A DNA stretch of 64,000 bases, from contig CANNGA010000010.1 of the NCBI GenBank assembly GCA_947504035.1, positions 1-64,000 of the forward strand. Direction: 5' to 3'. The stretch comes from an uncultured Flavobacteriaceae bacterium. GTDB lineage: Bacteria; Bacteroidota; Bacteroidia; Flavobacteriales; Flavobacteriaceae. Below, piece by piece: positions 420 to 42,187 of this stretch. Made by a program: the position numbers and the translations under genes. The stretch's first letter is position 1; each line of letters starts with the position of its first letter. The notes beneath the pieces were generated by a model. The model ran no database searches. It was not told where the DNA came from and worked only from the letters and a program-made list of their open reading frames with translations.

Positions 420-1580
420 CTAGAAGGCTTCAGCAATACCCAAATAAAATTCGTTTGAGCCTCTACCTACGCCCCAATCAAAACGAATGTTTAGGTTTTC
501 TTCTTTGTCTAATTTAAAACGTAAGCCCGCACCAAAATTTGGCTTTAACGATCCAAATTGAAAATCTGTGATGTCGTTATAAACACTTCCCGTTCCTAAA
601 AAGGCGACAGCTCCAAATCGAGATTCACCAAAATGTTTACGATATTCTACCTGGGTGGCCAACATATCACGATCTACAAAACGACCTTCTCTATAACCTC
701 GCATAATTTCGCTACTTCCAAAAAAGGCGAATTCAGAAAAAGGAATATTACCTCGCGTTGTTCTACCAACAAGTTGCAGTCCGATAATATCTTTGCTTTT
801 ATTTTTCAGTTCTTTGAAATGTCTTAGGTCAAAACGCGTTAAATCAAACGCATGTGTACCGCCTAAGATTTTACCGTACTCACCATGTGTGAACTCTAAA
901 TACCATCCATTTTGCGCATTTAGTACATTATTTCTACTGTCGTAAAGTACAGCAGCTTCAGCACCAACGGAAGTAGAACCGTTAAAACCTTCTGGTCTTA
1001 GTTGGTCTATAATGCCACCTTCTTCTATAGCTGTACTATAAATGTGGTTGTAACGCACACCAGCACCAATAAATAAGTGTTTTATAAAAAGTTGTTTCAG
1101 GAAAATAGGTTCAAATAAAAATTGGCTATTCTCATAAACCTCTTCAGCACTTTCAGGAGAATCTTGTCCAAATCCAAAAAATAACCTGGGATAATTTTGA
1201 AATAGAAAATTACCTTCTATGACCCATTTTTCTTGATTTGTAAAAATCTCGAAACCAGAGAATACAAAAAACTGATTGTTTAAGGTATACTGTATGGACA
1301 TTGGCATGTTAGAAACCCTTGTTTCTTCACCACTACCATTAAATTTAAATAAAAATTTAGCACCAGTTCCAAATGCGAAATTTGTCTCTGGAGAAAAGCT
1401 AACCACTGGGGCTGCTATAAACTTTTGTAAATAACGTGTAGAATCTTTTTGAACTGCTTTTTTATTGGGATAAAAGGTGAAAAGTTCCTTAAGATGTTCT
1501 AAATCCTGAGCATTAATAGTGGTTGTAGTGCAAAAAATAAGCAGCACGACTTTTATTAATAAGTACTGTTTTGTTTTCAA
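420..1580 (-). CDS. Omp85/BamA-type outer membrane barrel protein
   Basis: This is a 386-residue exported protein. Residues 1-24 form a signal peptide (KTKQYLLIKVVLLIFC, then a cut near INAQ). The rest is rich in alternating beta strands with aromatic ends, and the chain ends in Phe, as outer membrane barrels do. The segment IMRGYREGRF near residue 295 resembles the conserved (V/I)RG(F/Y) loop-6 motif of the Omp85 barrel (Bac_surface_Ag domain). There is no room for several POTRA domains, so this is a short barrel-only member and not BamA itself. Such proteins are common in Bacteroidota, often near hydrolases, and their substrates are unknown. The gene stands alone between its own terminator and that of purL. 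Confidence 0.75.
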   Translation of the reverse strand: MKTKQYLLIKVVLLIFCTTTTINAQDLEHLKELFTFYPNKKAVQKDSTRYLQKFIAAPVVSFSPETNFAFGTGAKFLFKFNGSGEETRVSNMPMSIQYTLNNQFFVFSGFEIFTNQEKWVIEGNFLFQNYPRLFFGFGQDSPESAEEVYENSQFLFEPIFLKQLFIKHLFIGAGVRYNHIYSTAIEEGGIIDQLRPEGFNGSTSVGAEAAVLYDSRNNVLNAQNGWYLEFTHGEYGKILGGTHAFDLTRFDLRHFKELKNKSKDIIGLQLVGRTTRGNIPFSEFAFFGSSEIMRGYREGRFVDRDMLATQVEYRKHFGESRFGAVAFLGTGSVYNDITDFQFGSLKPNFGAGLRFKLDKEENLNIRFDWGVGRGSNEFYLGIAEAF

Positions 1581-13201: not shown

Positions 13202-13744
13202 TTAATGCGAGGTAAGATACGCTTCAATTTTTTTTACGGCAATGTGGTAAGATGCTTTTAAAGCTCCTTCGCTAGTTTCTAGAATGTCTGACATGTCTTT
13301 ATATTTTATAGCTTCAAAGTATTTCATGTTAAATACCAGTTGTTGTTTTTCAGGAAGCGTAGCAATAGCTTTTTGTAATTTTAACTGTATGGCATCGCCT
13401 TCAAAATAGACATCAGAAGTTAAATTATTCAAGGCTAAGGTTTGTACGTCTTCATTGGATATTTGTAAACGTTTTGCGTTTTTATTGATAAGCGTGATGG
13501 CTTCATTTGTTGCTATGCGATACATCCATGAGTATAATTTACTATCACCTTTAAAATTATGAATGTTTTTATAAATTTTTATAAATGTATTTTGCAACAC
13601 ATCATCGGCATCATCATGAGATTTTACGATATGCCGAATATGCCAATAAAGACGCTCTTTGTAAAGTGTTATAAGCGTTCTAAAGGCTTTTTCTTTATGT
13701 GGTTTAGATTGTAAATCTTTTACTAGTTGGTCTTCTTCAATCAC
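13202..13744 (-). CDS. ECF sigma-70 family RNA polymerase sigma factor
   Basis: A 180-residue two-domain sigma factor. Region 2 lies at about 20-90 (DDADDVLQNTFIKIYKNIHNFKGDSKLYSWMYRIATNEAI), with the DvLQ..F and WmyrIA.N hallmarks. Region 4 is at about 125-175 (LPEKQQLVFNMKYFEAIKYKDMSDILETSEGALKASYH) as a helix-turn-helix for -35 binding. It has no region 1.1 or 3, as expected for the ECF class. It heads a unit with an anti-sigma-like protein and a Spy-like protein. A TATTTTTG element at 13775-13768 on the minus strand could be its -7 box, but there is no TTG at the right distance. Confidence 0.9.
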   Translation of the reverse strand: MIEEDQLVKDLQSKPHKEKAFRTLITLYKERLYWHIRHIVKSHDDADDVLQNTFIKIYKNIHNFKGDSKLYSWMYRIATNEAITLINKNAKRLQISNEDVQTLALNNLTSDVYFEGDAIQLKLQKAIATLPEKQQLVFNMKYFEAIKYKDMSDILETSEGALKASYHIAVKKIEAYLTSH

Positions 13745-13849
13745 AAAAACGATTTATGGTTAAGACTCAAAAATATACTAAAAGTTTAATTTAAAATGCA
13801 TTAAAAAAGGCAAAAACAAATAAATAGTTGATTACAAGTGTTTTGTGTT

Positions 13850-13885
13850 TACCTTTATCGTTTAAAGGTAAATAAAAACGATAAA
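13850..13885. promoter_or_regulatory. overlapping inverted repeats between the sigma operon and the RNA candidate
   Basis: A perfect 10-bp inverted repeat pairs TTTATCGTTT (13854-13863) with 13876-13885. A second near-perfect one pairs TACCTTTA (13850-13857) with TAAAGGTA (13863-13870). The two are mutually exclusive and share the left arm. They lie upstream of the minus-strand ECF operon and just upstream of a plus-strand promoter, where an operator would be expected. Confidence 0.4.
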
Positions 13886-13898
13886 ATACATGTTTTTC

Positions 13899-13929
13899 TT
13901 GCAGGATTGAATAAAAAGACTTATTTTTG
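13899..13929 (+). promoter_or_regulatory. promoter TTG-N20-TATTTTTG with no gene downstream
   Basis: TTG at 13899-13901 and TATTTTTG at 13922-13929 are 20 bases apart, matching the Bacteroidota promoter pattern used by the ferredoxin gene in this same window. It points rightward into a gap that contains no plus-strand gene, only two hairpins. Confidence 0.55.
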
Positions 13930-13935
13930 AACCAG

Positions 13936-14018
13936 ATAACCTACTTAATATAAGTTAGAAAGCCCCAAATTCTAACTTAAACAAAAAGGATAGAAACAAA
14001 ATGTTCTATCCTTTTTTT
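13936..14018 (+). ncRNA. candidate small RNA of about 83 nt
   Basis: A transcript begun about 7 nt past the -7 box would run through a perfect 10-bp hairpin (13951-13960 with 13970-13979, 9-nt loop AGCCCCAAA). It would then end at a 13-bp hairpin followed by seven T (14012-14018). Promoter, structured body and Rho-independent end are thus all present in 120 bases with no ORF. The alternative is that the second hairpin only ends msbA on the other strand, though it lies about 97 bases past that stop. I do not recognise a known RNA family. Confidence 0.45.
13983..14016. terminator. strong bidirectional terminator after msbA
   Basis: A perfect 13-bp stem (13983-13995 with 14004-14016) has an 8-nt loop. 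On the plus strand it is followed by a T7 run, and on the minus strand the A-rich left arm gives a U run. It can end the msbA transcript and the candidate small RNA. Confidence 0.85.
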
Positions 14019-14112
14019 GTTGGTATGGTCTTCCTTTATGTGTCGTGTTAATTTTTGATGTGTTTTTTAAGCTTTTTTACATTTACAATAATGAAGCTCT
14101 AAAGTAGGGCAT

Positions 14113-15954
14113 TTAATCAAAACTTTGCATTTGTACCAATTTATAATAGGTGCCTTTTTTAGCCATTAATTCCTCATGTTTGCCTTGCTCTACAATTTCA
14201 CCTTTGTGTAATACAATAATTTCATCAGCATTTTGAATGGTAGATAAGCGGTGTGCAATGACAATAGAGGTTCTATTTTTCATCATATTCTCAAGCGCTT
14301 CTTGTACCAAACGTTCGCTTTCAGTATCTAATGCCGAAGTGGCCTCATCGAGTACCATTATAGGAGGGCTCTTTAATACGGCGCGGGCAATACTTAAACG
14401 TTGTTTTTGGCCTCCAGATAATTTGTTTCCAGAATCTCCAATGTTGGTATGAATGCCTTTGGGAAGGTCTTTTACAAATTCCCAAGCATTTGCAATTTTA
14501 AGGGCATCTATAATGTCTTCTTCTGTAGCATCTGCTTTACCTATTAAAATATTGCTTTTAACGGTAGCATTAAATAAAATGGAATCTTGTGTAACTAGTC
14601 CCATTAAGTTACGTAATGAATTTTTGGTAATGGCTCTAATATCTTCACCGTCTATGGTAATGCTGCCACTAGTTACATCATAAAATCGCGTTACTAAATT
14701 GGCAATTGTACTTTTACCACTTCCAGATTGACCTACTAAAGCAACACTCTTGCCTTTGGGTACTGTAATCGAAAAGTTTTTTAGGACTAAATCGTCTTCA
14801 TACTTAAACGACACCGCATTTAAACTAATAGCTTGAGTAAAGTCCGTTTTTGTTTTGGCATTTGGTACATCCTCAATAGGGGATACGGTATTTAGTATTT
14901 CTAAAACACGTTCGGCCGCAGCATTACCCTTTTTTACGCTATAACTAGCCTTGCTAATTGCTTTTGCAGGCGTAAGTATGTTGTAAGCCAACCCCATGTA
15001 GACAATAAATAGTCCAGCTTCCAGACTGGGAGTACCTTGAGTTGGATCTACGTTTAAAACCATTTGCCCACCATACCAAAGCAAGATGGAGATAACGAGT
15101 ATACCAAGAAACTCACTAACCGGAGAGGCTAAGTTTTGACGGTTTAATAGAATATTTGAAAACGCGTTGAAACGACCTGTTGAATTTTGAAATTTCTCTC
15201 CAAATATAGTTTCAGCATTAAATCCCTTTATAACTTTAAGACCACCTAAGGTTTCTTCGATTATAGATAAAAATTGGCCTTGTTCTTTTTGTACTTTATC
15301 AGAATGTTTTTTTAAACTTTTCCCAATTCTAGAAATTATAAAACCTGAAACAGGAATAAAAATAAAGACAAACAGGGTGAGTTTTGCACTAATTAAGAAC
15401 ATGGTAATGATTGTGAAAATTATCATTAACGGCTCTCTTACAATTAATTCTAGAATGGATAAAAAAGAGCCTTGTATCTCTTGAACATCGGTTGTCATTC
15501 TTGCAATAGTATCGCCTTTTCGTTTTTCAGAAAAGAAGGATAGCGGTAAATATGTTATTTTATTAAAGAGTGCATTACGAATATCTTTTAAAACACCATT
15601 TCGTAAAAATGTAATAAAGTACATGGCTAAATAACTAAATAAATTTTTTAGCAAAAACATACTAATTACTAAAATGACCATGAAAACAAGAACATCACCA
15701 TGGCCTTCGTTTGCTTTTTGCGTAACAAAGTAGTTAAGAGAGGCTTCTAAATAGTCTTTAGCATTGGCTATCCCAGTCCAAACAGGTTTTGTGTTTAGTT
15801 GCCTAGTTTTATCAAATAAAACATTAAGCATTGGAAATAGCGATACCATAGCCAATGTGCCAAATAAAGCGTAAAAAATATTACTGATTATATTGAGAAT
15901 TGCATAAACTTTATAGGGTTTTGCAAAACGTAGTATCTGTTTAAAGTAATCCAT
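14113..15954 (-). CDS. MsbA-type ABC exporter, fused membrane and ATPase domains
   Basis: A 613-residue half-transporter, active as a dimer in the inner membrane. Residues 15-345 hold six membrane helices. The nucleotide-binding domain follows: Walker A GQSGSGKST at 408-416, signature LSGGQ at 512-516, Walker B IMVLDE at 532-537, with an ATSALD D-loop. This is the layout of the MsbA/lipid and multidrug exporter family. Lipid A flipping is the likely role in a Gram-negative, but drug or peptide export cannot be excluded. Its ATG overlaps the last base of the pgm stop codon (TAATG), so the two are translationally coupled. A strong terminator follows. Confidence 0.85.
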   Translation of the reverse strand: MDYFKQILRFAKPYKVYAILNIISNIFYALFGTLAMVSLFPMLNVLFDKTRQLNTKPVWTGIANAKDYLEASLNYFVTQKANEGHGDVLVFMVILVISMFLLKNLFSYLAMYFITFLRNGVLKDIRNALFNKITYLPLSFFSEKRKGDTIARMTTDVQEIQGSFLSILELIVREPLMIIFTIITMFLISAKLTLFVFIFIPVSGFIISRIGKSLKKHSDKVQKEQGQFLSIIEETLGGLKVIKGFNAETIFGEKFQNSTGRFNAFSNILLNRQNLASPVSEFLGILVISILLWYGGQMVLNVDPTQGTPSLEAGLFIVYMGLAYNILTPAKAISKASYSVKKGNAAAERVLEILNTVSPIEDVPNAKTKTDFTQAISLNAVSFKYEDDLVLKNFSITVPKGKSVALVGQSGSGKSTIANLVTRFYDVTSGSITIDGEDIRAITKNSLRNLMGLVTQDSILFNATVKSNILIGKADATEEDIIDALKIANAWEFVKDLPKGIHTNIGDSGNKLSGGQKQRLSIARAVLKSPPIMVLDEATSALDTESERLVQEALENMMKNRTSIVIAHRLSTIQNADEIIVLHKGEIVEQGKHEELMAKKGTYYKLVQMQSFD

Positions 15955-42114: not shown

Positions 42115-42187
42115 TTATTTTTGTTTAAAATAATTGATTTAGAACAACATACACGATTTTCGCCAGAGGTTAACCCAAATTTGAGTG

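Follow-up and report, generated by a model that had tools for sequence, protein, structure and literature searches.

RosA of Bacillus subtilis acts as a sponge of the small RNA RoxS, and this has been demonstrated in cells (PMC8216469). FopS of Bacteroides thetaiotaomicron is described as a multicopy family with 14 members of about 65–70 nt which pair near start codons (PMC11697453), and Rfp18 of Flavobacterium psychrophilum as an sRNA conserved in flavobacteria for which mRNA targets have been predicted (PMC9723704). The latter publication is the one transcriptome study we found in which flavobacterial sRNAs were tested by deletion, and the sections of PMC9331221 considered here mention sRNAs in general terms only. 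Regulation by small RNAs has hardly been charted in flavobacteria, which are among the main organisms breaking down algal polymers at sea. An sRNA that is conserved, whose seeds fit those of a candidate partner, which shares a promoter element with other genes and for which there are candidate target mRNAs offers a circuit that can be put to the test.

The locus described here lies on a stretch of 64,000 nt from an uncultured Flavobacteriaceae bacterium (the window; contig CANNGA010000010.1). Judging from comparative sequence analysis, it almost certainly encodes a conserved sRNA family without a match in Rfam 15, here called sRNA1. Its most likely role is that of a sponge within an RNA network of the Flavobacteriaceae that uses two seeds; its putative partner is a second small RNA, sRNA3. 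Like RosA, sRNA1 has another small RNA as its proposed partner and would be under its own transcriptional control; unlike RosA, it is known from sequence alone and belongs to another phylum, and the likeness is one of description (PMC8216469). The likeness to FopS and GibS, again by description, concerns sRNA3 and not sRNA1, namely the multiple copies and the proposed pairing at start codons, and the word "sponge" does not occur in the main text of that paper (PMC11697453). Rfp18, compared by description, is reported to pair via its third stem–loop, whereas sRNA1 has two (PMC9723704). One of the numbered RNAs of F. psychrophilum may correspond to sRNA3 or sRNA1. The features of the locus are, in window positions:

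13202-13744, minus strand: ECF sigma factor gene, divergent upstream neighbour, with Sigma70_r2 and r4_2 domains; kept in synteny
13859-13869, plus strand: first direct-repeat copy (CGTTTAAAGGT, degenerate), read directly with the consensus from relatives
13879-13889, plus strand: second direct-repeat copy (CGATAAAATAC), adjoining the -33 element, read directly
13899-13901, plus strand: -33 element TTG, read directly; also present in relatives
13922-13929, plus strand: -7 element TATTTTTG, read directly; TAnnTTTR at the same spacing in relatives
13934-14018, plus strand: sRNA1 transcript, from the covariance model match at 13934-14017, covariation in 68 sequences and a fold with z -7.2
13938-13947, plus strand: 5' tail motif AACCTACTTA, reverse complement of TAAGTAGGTT in sRNA3
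13951-13979, plus strand: hairpin 1, 10 bp in the window copy
13962-13970, plus strand: loop motif GCCCCAAAT, reverse complement of ATTTGGGGC in sRNA3
13983-14018, plus strand: intrinsic terminator of 13 bp, arms 13983-13995 and 14004-14016, seven T at 14012-14018
14113-15954, minus strand: msbA-like ABC transporter gene (open reading frame), convergent downstream neighbour, used as tblastn query for synteny

An earlier sequence-only reading of the window had proposed a small RNA of about 83 nt in a gap without genes, opposite in orientation to both neighbours. The positions which it gave for the promoter, for the perfect hairpin of 10 bp and for the 13-bp hairpin with seven T are all exact on direct reading: 20 bases separate the TTG from the -7 element, and the arms TAAGTTAGAA (13951-13960) and TTCTAACTTA (13970-13979) form ten uninterrupted pairs. 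No open reading frame of at least 60 amino acids is present within 13745-14112, the three plus-strand frames of 13934-14018 are all broken or short, and the ECF gene as well as the gene which we take to be msbA, following that reading, are both on the minus strand. Thus, the locus has what is expected of an intergenic small RNA, an own promoter and an own intrinsic terminator without a coding frame. The promoter, whose form is of the Bacteroidetes type, was not flagged by a general sigma-70 scan. The 5' end of sRNA1 probably falls at 13934-13936. The region 13936-14018 folds with -22.4 kcal/mol, and as this corresponds to a z of -7.2 and none of 200 shuffled sequences folds as low, the fold is not a product of chance. 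Read on the minus strand the terminator hairpin is followed by five T and can therefore also serve msbA, as had been suggested, so that the terminator is probably shared by both transcripts. The end of msbA lies about 20-40 nt beyond sRNA1 in most relatives and 97 nt beyond the hairpin in the window.

A DNA search with 161 bases gave a clear match to this stretch in no more than part of the 12 genomes of the genus. Reading upstream of the ECF gene combined with a motif search revealed the element in 11 of the 12, and in the twelfth (G006) it was recovered by a covariance model. This model, R1, was built from nine genus genomes, leaving out the window's genome (G000), G006 and G008, in which it matched with E-values of 1.9e-7 (13934-14017, plus strand), 3.2e-19 and 5.3e-4, respectively. 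All 12 genomes are matched at the locus, with these three as the independent matches; G000 and G008 carry the most divergent copies of the genus. In G006 and G009 (L034, L041) a gene which we assume to be serpin-like separates sRNA1 from the ECF gene, next to the latter.

In the family sample, R1 matched 112 of 397 genomes at E <= 0.01, a count whose weak end includes false matches. Matches weaker than about 1e-5 were in part rejected as false (L139 with 4.6e-5, L141 with 9.2e-5, L144, L147, L149 and L152), and owing to these a threshold of E <= 1e-6 was used for the comparison of sRNA1 and sRNA3 below. The R2 model matched 62 of 296 genomes of the order sample at E 0.01; six matches are below 1e-4, all of them in the family of the window, and the remaining ones look like noise, the best outside the family having an E-value of 4.2e-4. 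In the same sample the best match of the sRNA1 model in genus g128, which was taken as Flavobacterium, has an E-value of 7.0e-4.

A search pattern for the promoter (second repeat, CTTG and -7 box), which is silent on the RNA itself, was scanned through named genomes and gave 75 stretches with 78 sites, one of them cut off and 77 complete, in Winogradskyella, Psychroserpens, Algibacter, Flaviramulus, Gaetbulibacter, Olleya, Hanstruepera, Mangrovimonas and other genera. CCCCAA follows within 70 nt of the -7 box at 75 of the 77 complete sites; of the other two, one (L202) is labelled as a Ruminococcus MAG and is probably a chance match, and the other (L245) reads CCCAAG, one base short. Among 170 loci matched by the model, with some genomes counted twice through two routes, 155 are flanked by the divergent ECF gene as well as by msbA in convergent orientation, nine by one of these genes and six by neither, the last being weak and probably false matches. 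The distance from sRNA1 to both genes is nearly constant in relatives. Thus, many genera of the Flavobacteriaceae have sRNA1 at the same place, flanked by this ECF operon and msbA, and hairpin 1 and the promoter persist together with msbA, the opposite of the loss in relatives which the sequence-only reading had named as speaking against a small RNA. In L115 and L122 an sRNA1-like stretch lies just upstream of the model match, so that sRNA1 is seemingly in tandem there. Aquimarina pacifica (L227, L216) has five sites, four of them in a row, of a divergent relative which keeps the second repeat, the promoter and a CCCCAAG stretch.

The proposed structure could be assessed with an alignment of 68 sequences (A8), in which 97.2% of the cells are paired and 19 of the 21 pairs vary on both sides, eight of eight modelled pairs in hairpin 1 and 11 of 13 in the terminator. 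As the alignment was fitted to the model and thus favours its structure, the controls and the wobble pairs are the safer guides: 285 cells with double changes compare with 62 after shuffling and 24-40 after sliding, and G-U pairs exceed A-C mismatches by 79 to 2 (46:0 in helix 1 and 33:2 in helix 2). This excess places sRNA1 on the plus strand, and the compensatory changes on the transcribed strand are those of a conserved RNA structure. Stem 1 drifts, with a mean conservation of 68%, around parts that stay constant, the 5' tail AACCUACUU and the loop CCCCAAAU: the CCCCAA columns are conserved to 99-100% and the AACCTA columns to 96-99%. CCCCAA is found in 67, AACCTA in 56 and the exact AACCTACTT in 34 of the 68 sequences. 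A seed displayed on a stem would be expected to look like this. With the conservation of promoter, tail, first loop and helices and the wobble bias, the comparative data support the small RNA proposed earlier, and sRNA1 is almost certainly a real plus-strand RNA of about 84 nt. That reading could not have seen the direct repeat upstream, nor that tail and CCCC loop are constant, nor the multi-copy RNA complementary to them.

The repeat has the consensus CGAYnAARnGY and stands in two copies, 20-21 nt apart, directly before the -33 TTG. At 71 of the 77 complete promoter sites the first copy (with at most one mismatch) precedes the second by 20 or 21 nt. A tandem-repeat pattern has 30 sites in the 12 genus genomes and none in the reversed control; the copy in the window is too degenerate for it (no site in G000). 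By reading, four of these sites belong to sRNA1, seven to DUF6588 genes, eight to the side of a gene which we take to be sixA-like, beyond which lies a presumably ppk1-like gene (two of the eight overlap in one genome), six to a group of secreted proteins and five to others. The DUF6588 gene, for which Pfam was run on one of the seven, has the same repeat-to-promoter geometry as sRNA1. A stricter form of the tandem pattern is found at 26 places in 25 of 249 family genomes, mostly at DUF6588 and on the sixA side. An early idea, that a regulator of the LytTR type might bind this repeat, was not retained.

The candidate partner was reached via a census of CCCCAAAT in the window's genome, in which 161 sites compare with 125 in the control. 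Two tandem units read on the opposite strand as CCATAACATAAGTAGGTTAAGTTYATGGTAGATTTGGGGC, followed by a terminator; this is sRNA3:

L388 (G000:C6), about 970-1340, minus strand: sRNA3, two tandem copies, beyond the apparent end of a gene which we take to be purF

sRNA3 is about 78 nt long, is often present in several copies and bears the reverse complements of both constant parts of sRNA1, TAAGTAGGTT to AACCTACTTA and ATTTGGGGC to GCCCCAAAT. In the window's genome these exact matches are 10 and 9 nt long and amount to the exposed complementarity expected of a sponge. It was discovered through the CCCC part, so that the AACCTACTTA match was not part of the search. The pattern CCCCAART-gap-AACCTACTT is present in 236 of 299 family genomes, with eight matches in the reversed control by our own count; it does not count sRNA3 alone, since it also catches mRNA sites and a further RNA, sRNA4. 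Among the matches listed, most places carry the 30-mer CCCCAAATCTACCATRAACTTAACCTACTT or close forms, and the 30-mer CCCCAAATCT(T)ACCATRAACTTAACCTACTT often occurs in two to five copies, roughly 200-350 nt apart. Within the order sample the pattern is found in 19 of 50 genomes of the Flavobacteriaceae (2 of 25 in g128) and in 4 of 246 genomes outside the family, with the 30-mer in none of these four.

The strand of sRNA3 was assigned from the wobble pairs of its terminator and from its promoter. Interior terminator pairs show 29 G-U against one A-C in 79 units, and in 33 of 42 units CCAT is preceded at 3-8 nt by a -7-like box; the interior count is preferred to an earlier one which included the stem ends in fewer units (19 G-U, 23 A-C). 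Hairpin 1 of sRNA3 is of no help, as by eye many copies are A-C mismatched on the proposed strand and G-U on the other. The partner pattern is present in 53 of the 54 genomes with sRNA1 at E <= 1e-6, compared with 183 of 245 others, in a hand count of genomes present in both samples; the exception, G026, is 84% complete. It is therefore common also in genomes where sRNA1 was not found.

In the window's genome, the predicted cofold of sRNA1 with either sRNA3 copy has -10.6 kcal/mol, which is reached by 3 and 1 of 300 shuffled sequences. With duplexfold alone, 113 of 300 shuffles are as good for one copy and 27 of 300, a marginal result, for the other. Twelve other same-genome pairs (13 were set up, one was skipped) gave cofolds of -9.6 to -17.9, with 0-2 of 100 shuffles each as good. 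On the other hand, the pairing predicted for the window copy is no more than moderate: of 38 control leaders, taken from other genes of the window, 6 equal or surpass it in their pairing with sRNA3, which lowers our confidence in a sponge mechanism. As the energy is not special compared with leaders, the case for pairing rests on the place and the conservation of the exact matches. Compensating changes in sRNA3 are invisible to the exact search pattern.

Some pattern matches are gene starts, with CCCCAAAT(C) before and AACCTACTT just after the ATG, for example that of a lipoprotein gene in L417 resembling the CAP-domain lipoprotein of L272. The motif order of such mRNA sites allows one straight duplex with sRNA3. 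In sRNA1 the order is opposite, so that both motifs cannot join one sRNA3 as one straight duplex, and hence sRNA1 does not reproduce a target site. The leader of a 40-aa open reading frame is complementary to sRNA3 over 30 nt, perfectly so in L420 (cofold -48.9). This reading frame (MASNVSEQI.. / MATNLPEQP..) and the complementarity of its leader are conserved in L420 (minus strand, 1536), L300 (plus strand, 1567) and L319. Eight other leaders all pair well (8 of 8 at <=1 of 38 controls), in a circular test, as they were picked for carrying the motif. The DUF6588 leaders are not supported as sRNA3 targets as a group, since three of nine reach <=3 of 38 controls and two of nine are weaker than most.

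How these parts might work together can be outlined as follows. A regulator bound to the two direct repeats would turn on sRNA1, the DUF6588 gene and the leader RNA beside the sixA-like gene. Strongly supported by the comparative data is the second step, an RNA of about 84 nt with the exposed tail AACCUACUUA, a hairpin with the CCCCAAAU loop and a terminator. Tail and loop would then pair with UAAGUAGGUU and AUUUGGGG of sRNA3; the likeliest joint contact would be that the tail of sRNA1 meets the loop of a weak hairpin of sRNA3, and an open stretch of sRNA3 the loop of sRNA1. sRNA3 would repress mRNAs with CCCCAAAU(C) and AACCUACUU around the start codon, and sRNA1 would relieve this repression. 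On balance we lean slightly towards sRNA1 being such a sponge, or anti-sRNA, of sRNA3, a reading suggested by the two exact matches, their conservation and the co-occurrence of both RNAs. Points against it are that the DUF6588 leaders share the promoter repeat and yet only three of nine pair well with sRNA3, that the tail motif is exact in no more than 34 of the 68 sequences, and that the motif order in sRNA1 is opposite to that of the mRNA sites. The seeds of RoxS are C-rich, whereas here the regulator sRNA3 would have the G-rich seed and the sponge sRNA1 the C-rich one. We put forward more tentatively, as something that could well be otherwise, a network throughout the Flavobacteriaceae in which the G-seed RNAs sRNA3 and sRNA4, often in tandem, may silence mRNAs whose start regions bear CCCCAAAU and AACCUACUU, and the C-seed sponges sRNA1 and perhaps sRNA2 may be co-induced by the regulator of some C-type transcripts; this would form a coherent feed-forward switch that spans transcription and translation.

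sRNA1 might instead regulate in trans in the ordinary way, its CCCC loop pairing directly with mRNAs at G-rich sites, and its complementarity to sRNA3 would then be secondary. A C-rich loop on a stem is a usual design of sRNA seeds, and the covarying stem of sRNA1 fits it; in addition, 32 of the 68 sequences have a second CCCAA-type motif, always in the terminator loop. We regard this as rather unlikely, as two separate conserved stretches, of 10 and 9 nt in the window's genome, both match one near-invariant partner RNA. Lower again we rank the idea that CCCCAAAUC is the site of an RNA-binding protein, with sRNA1 as decoy and the leaders sharing the motif as targets, as in Csr or Crc systems. 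The motif does recur in sense on unrelated RNAs: CCCCAARTC is also present in the sixA-side leader and in a second small RNA, sRNA2, the pattern GnCCCCAARTCn has 71 sites compared with 35 in the reversed control (12 genomes), and among the 97 classified sites of the first 100 listed for the window's genome, with crude ORF calls, 9 of 19 intergenic CCCCAAAT are in sense within 100 nt upstream of a start and 1 of 19 in antisense. Since sRNA3 was found, which has the complement on a strand fixed by wobble pairs, an RNA partner already explains the motif, and a protein site appears quite improbable.

The roles of the two RNAs could also be reversed, sRNA1 being a target of sRNA3 whose hairpin 1 is opened and whose stability is altered, with sRNA1 acting elsewhere. 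The cofold indeed predicts that the G-rich stretch of sRNA3 opens hairpin 1; against this, the sRNA3 pattern is more widespread and often multi-copy, which suggests, though no more than that, a regulator which gained a sponge later, and we consider such a reversal very improbable. Least credible of all is control at the level of the DNA, in which the region would serve the ECF operon and the termination of msbA and yield no plus-strand product. It would account for the near-constant distance to both genes and for the bidirectional terminator. A plus-strand wobble bias of 79 G-U to 2 A-C, a stem 1 that covaries around a constant loop and a promoter geometry aimed at the RNA and common to the DUF6588 promoters all argue against it.

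Further RNAs carry related motifs. sRNA2 (L364 and L305, G000:C3:227654) carries GACCCCAAATC and its own terminator, is unrelated to sRNA1 and is also found in four more genus genomes (L297, L301, L306, L310). sRNA4 (L431, L440, L441, L442), with a G-seed, reads AAGTAGGTTGAT, a stem of varying sequence, ATCAAATTTGGGG and a terminator. The sixA-side leader or small RNA (L263, L266, L165 and others) has a near-constant GACCCCAAATC, a variable hairpin and then TTCCCTC, and the genes downstream of it differ. In Rfam release 15 no family reaches the gathering cut-off with this region of the window or with six relatives, which yield only matches below it. Likewise, the sixA-side leader and sRNA3 gave nothing above it, and neither did any of these RNAs when the E-value was relaxed. 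A literature search covering main texts and few subscription papers found no report of sRNA1 or sRNA3, which is weak evidence of novelty. Elsewhere in the window, at 42145-42172 on the minus strand, lies an L19-Flavobacteria ribosomal protein leader (Rfam RF03130).
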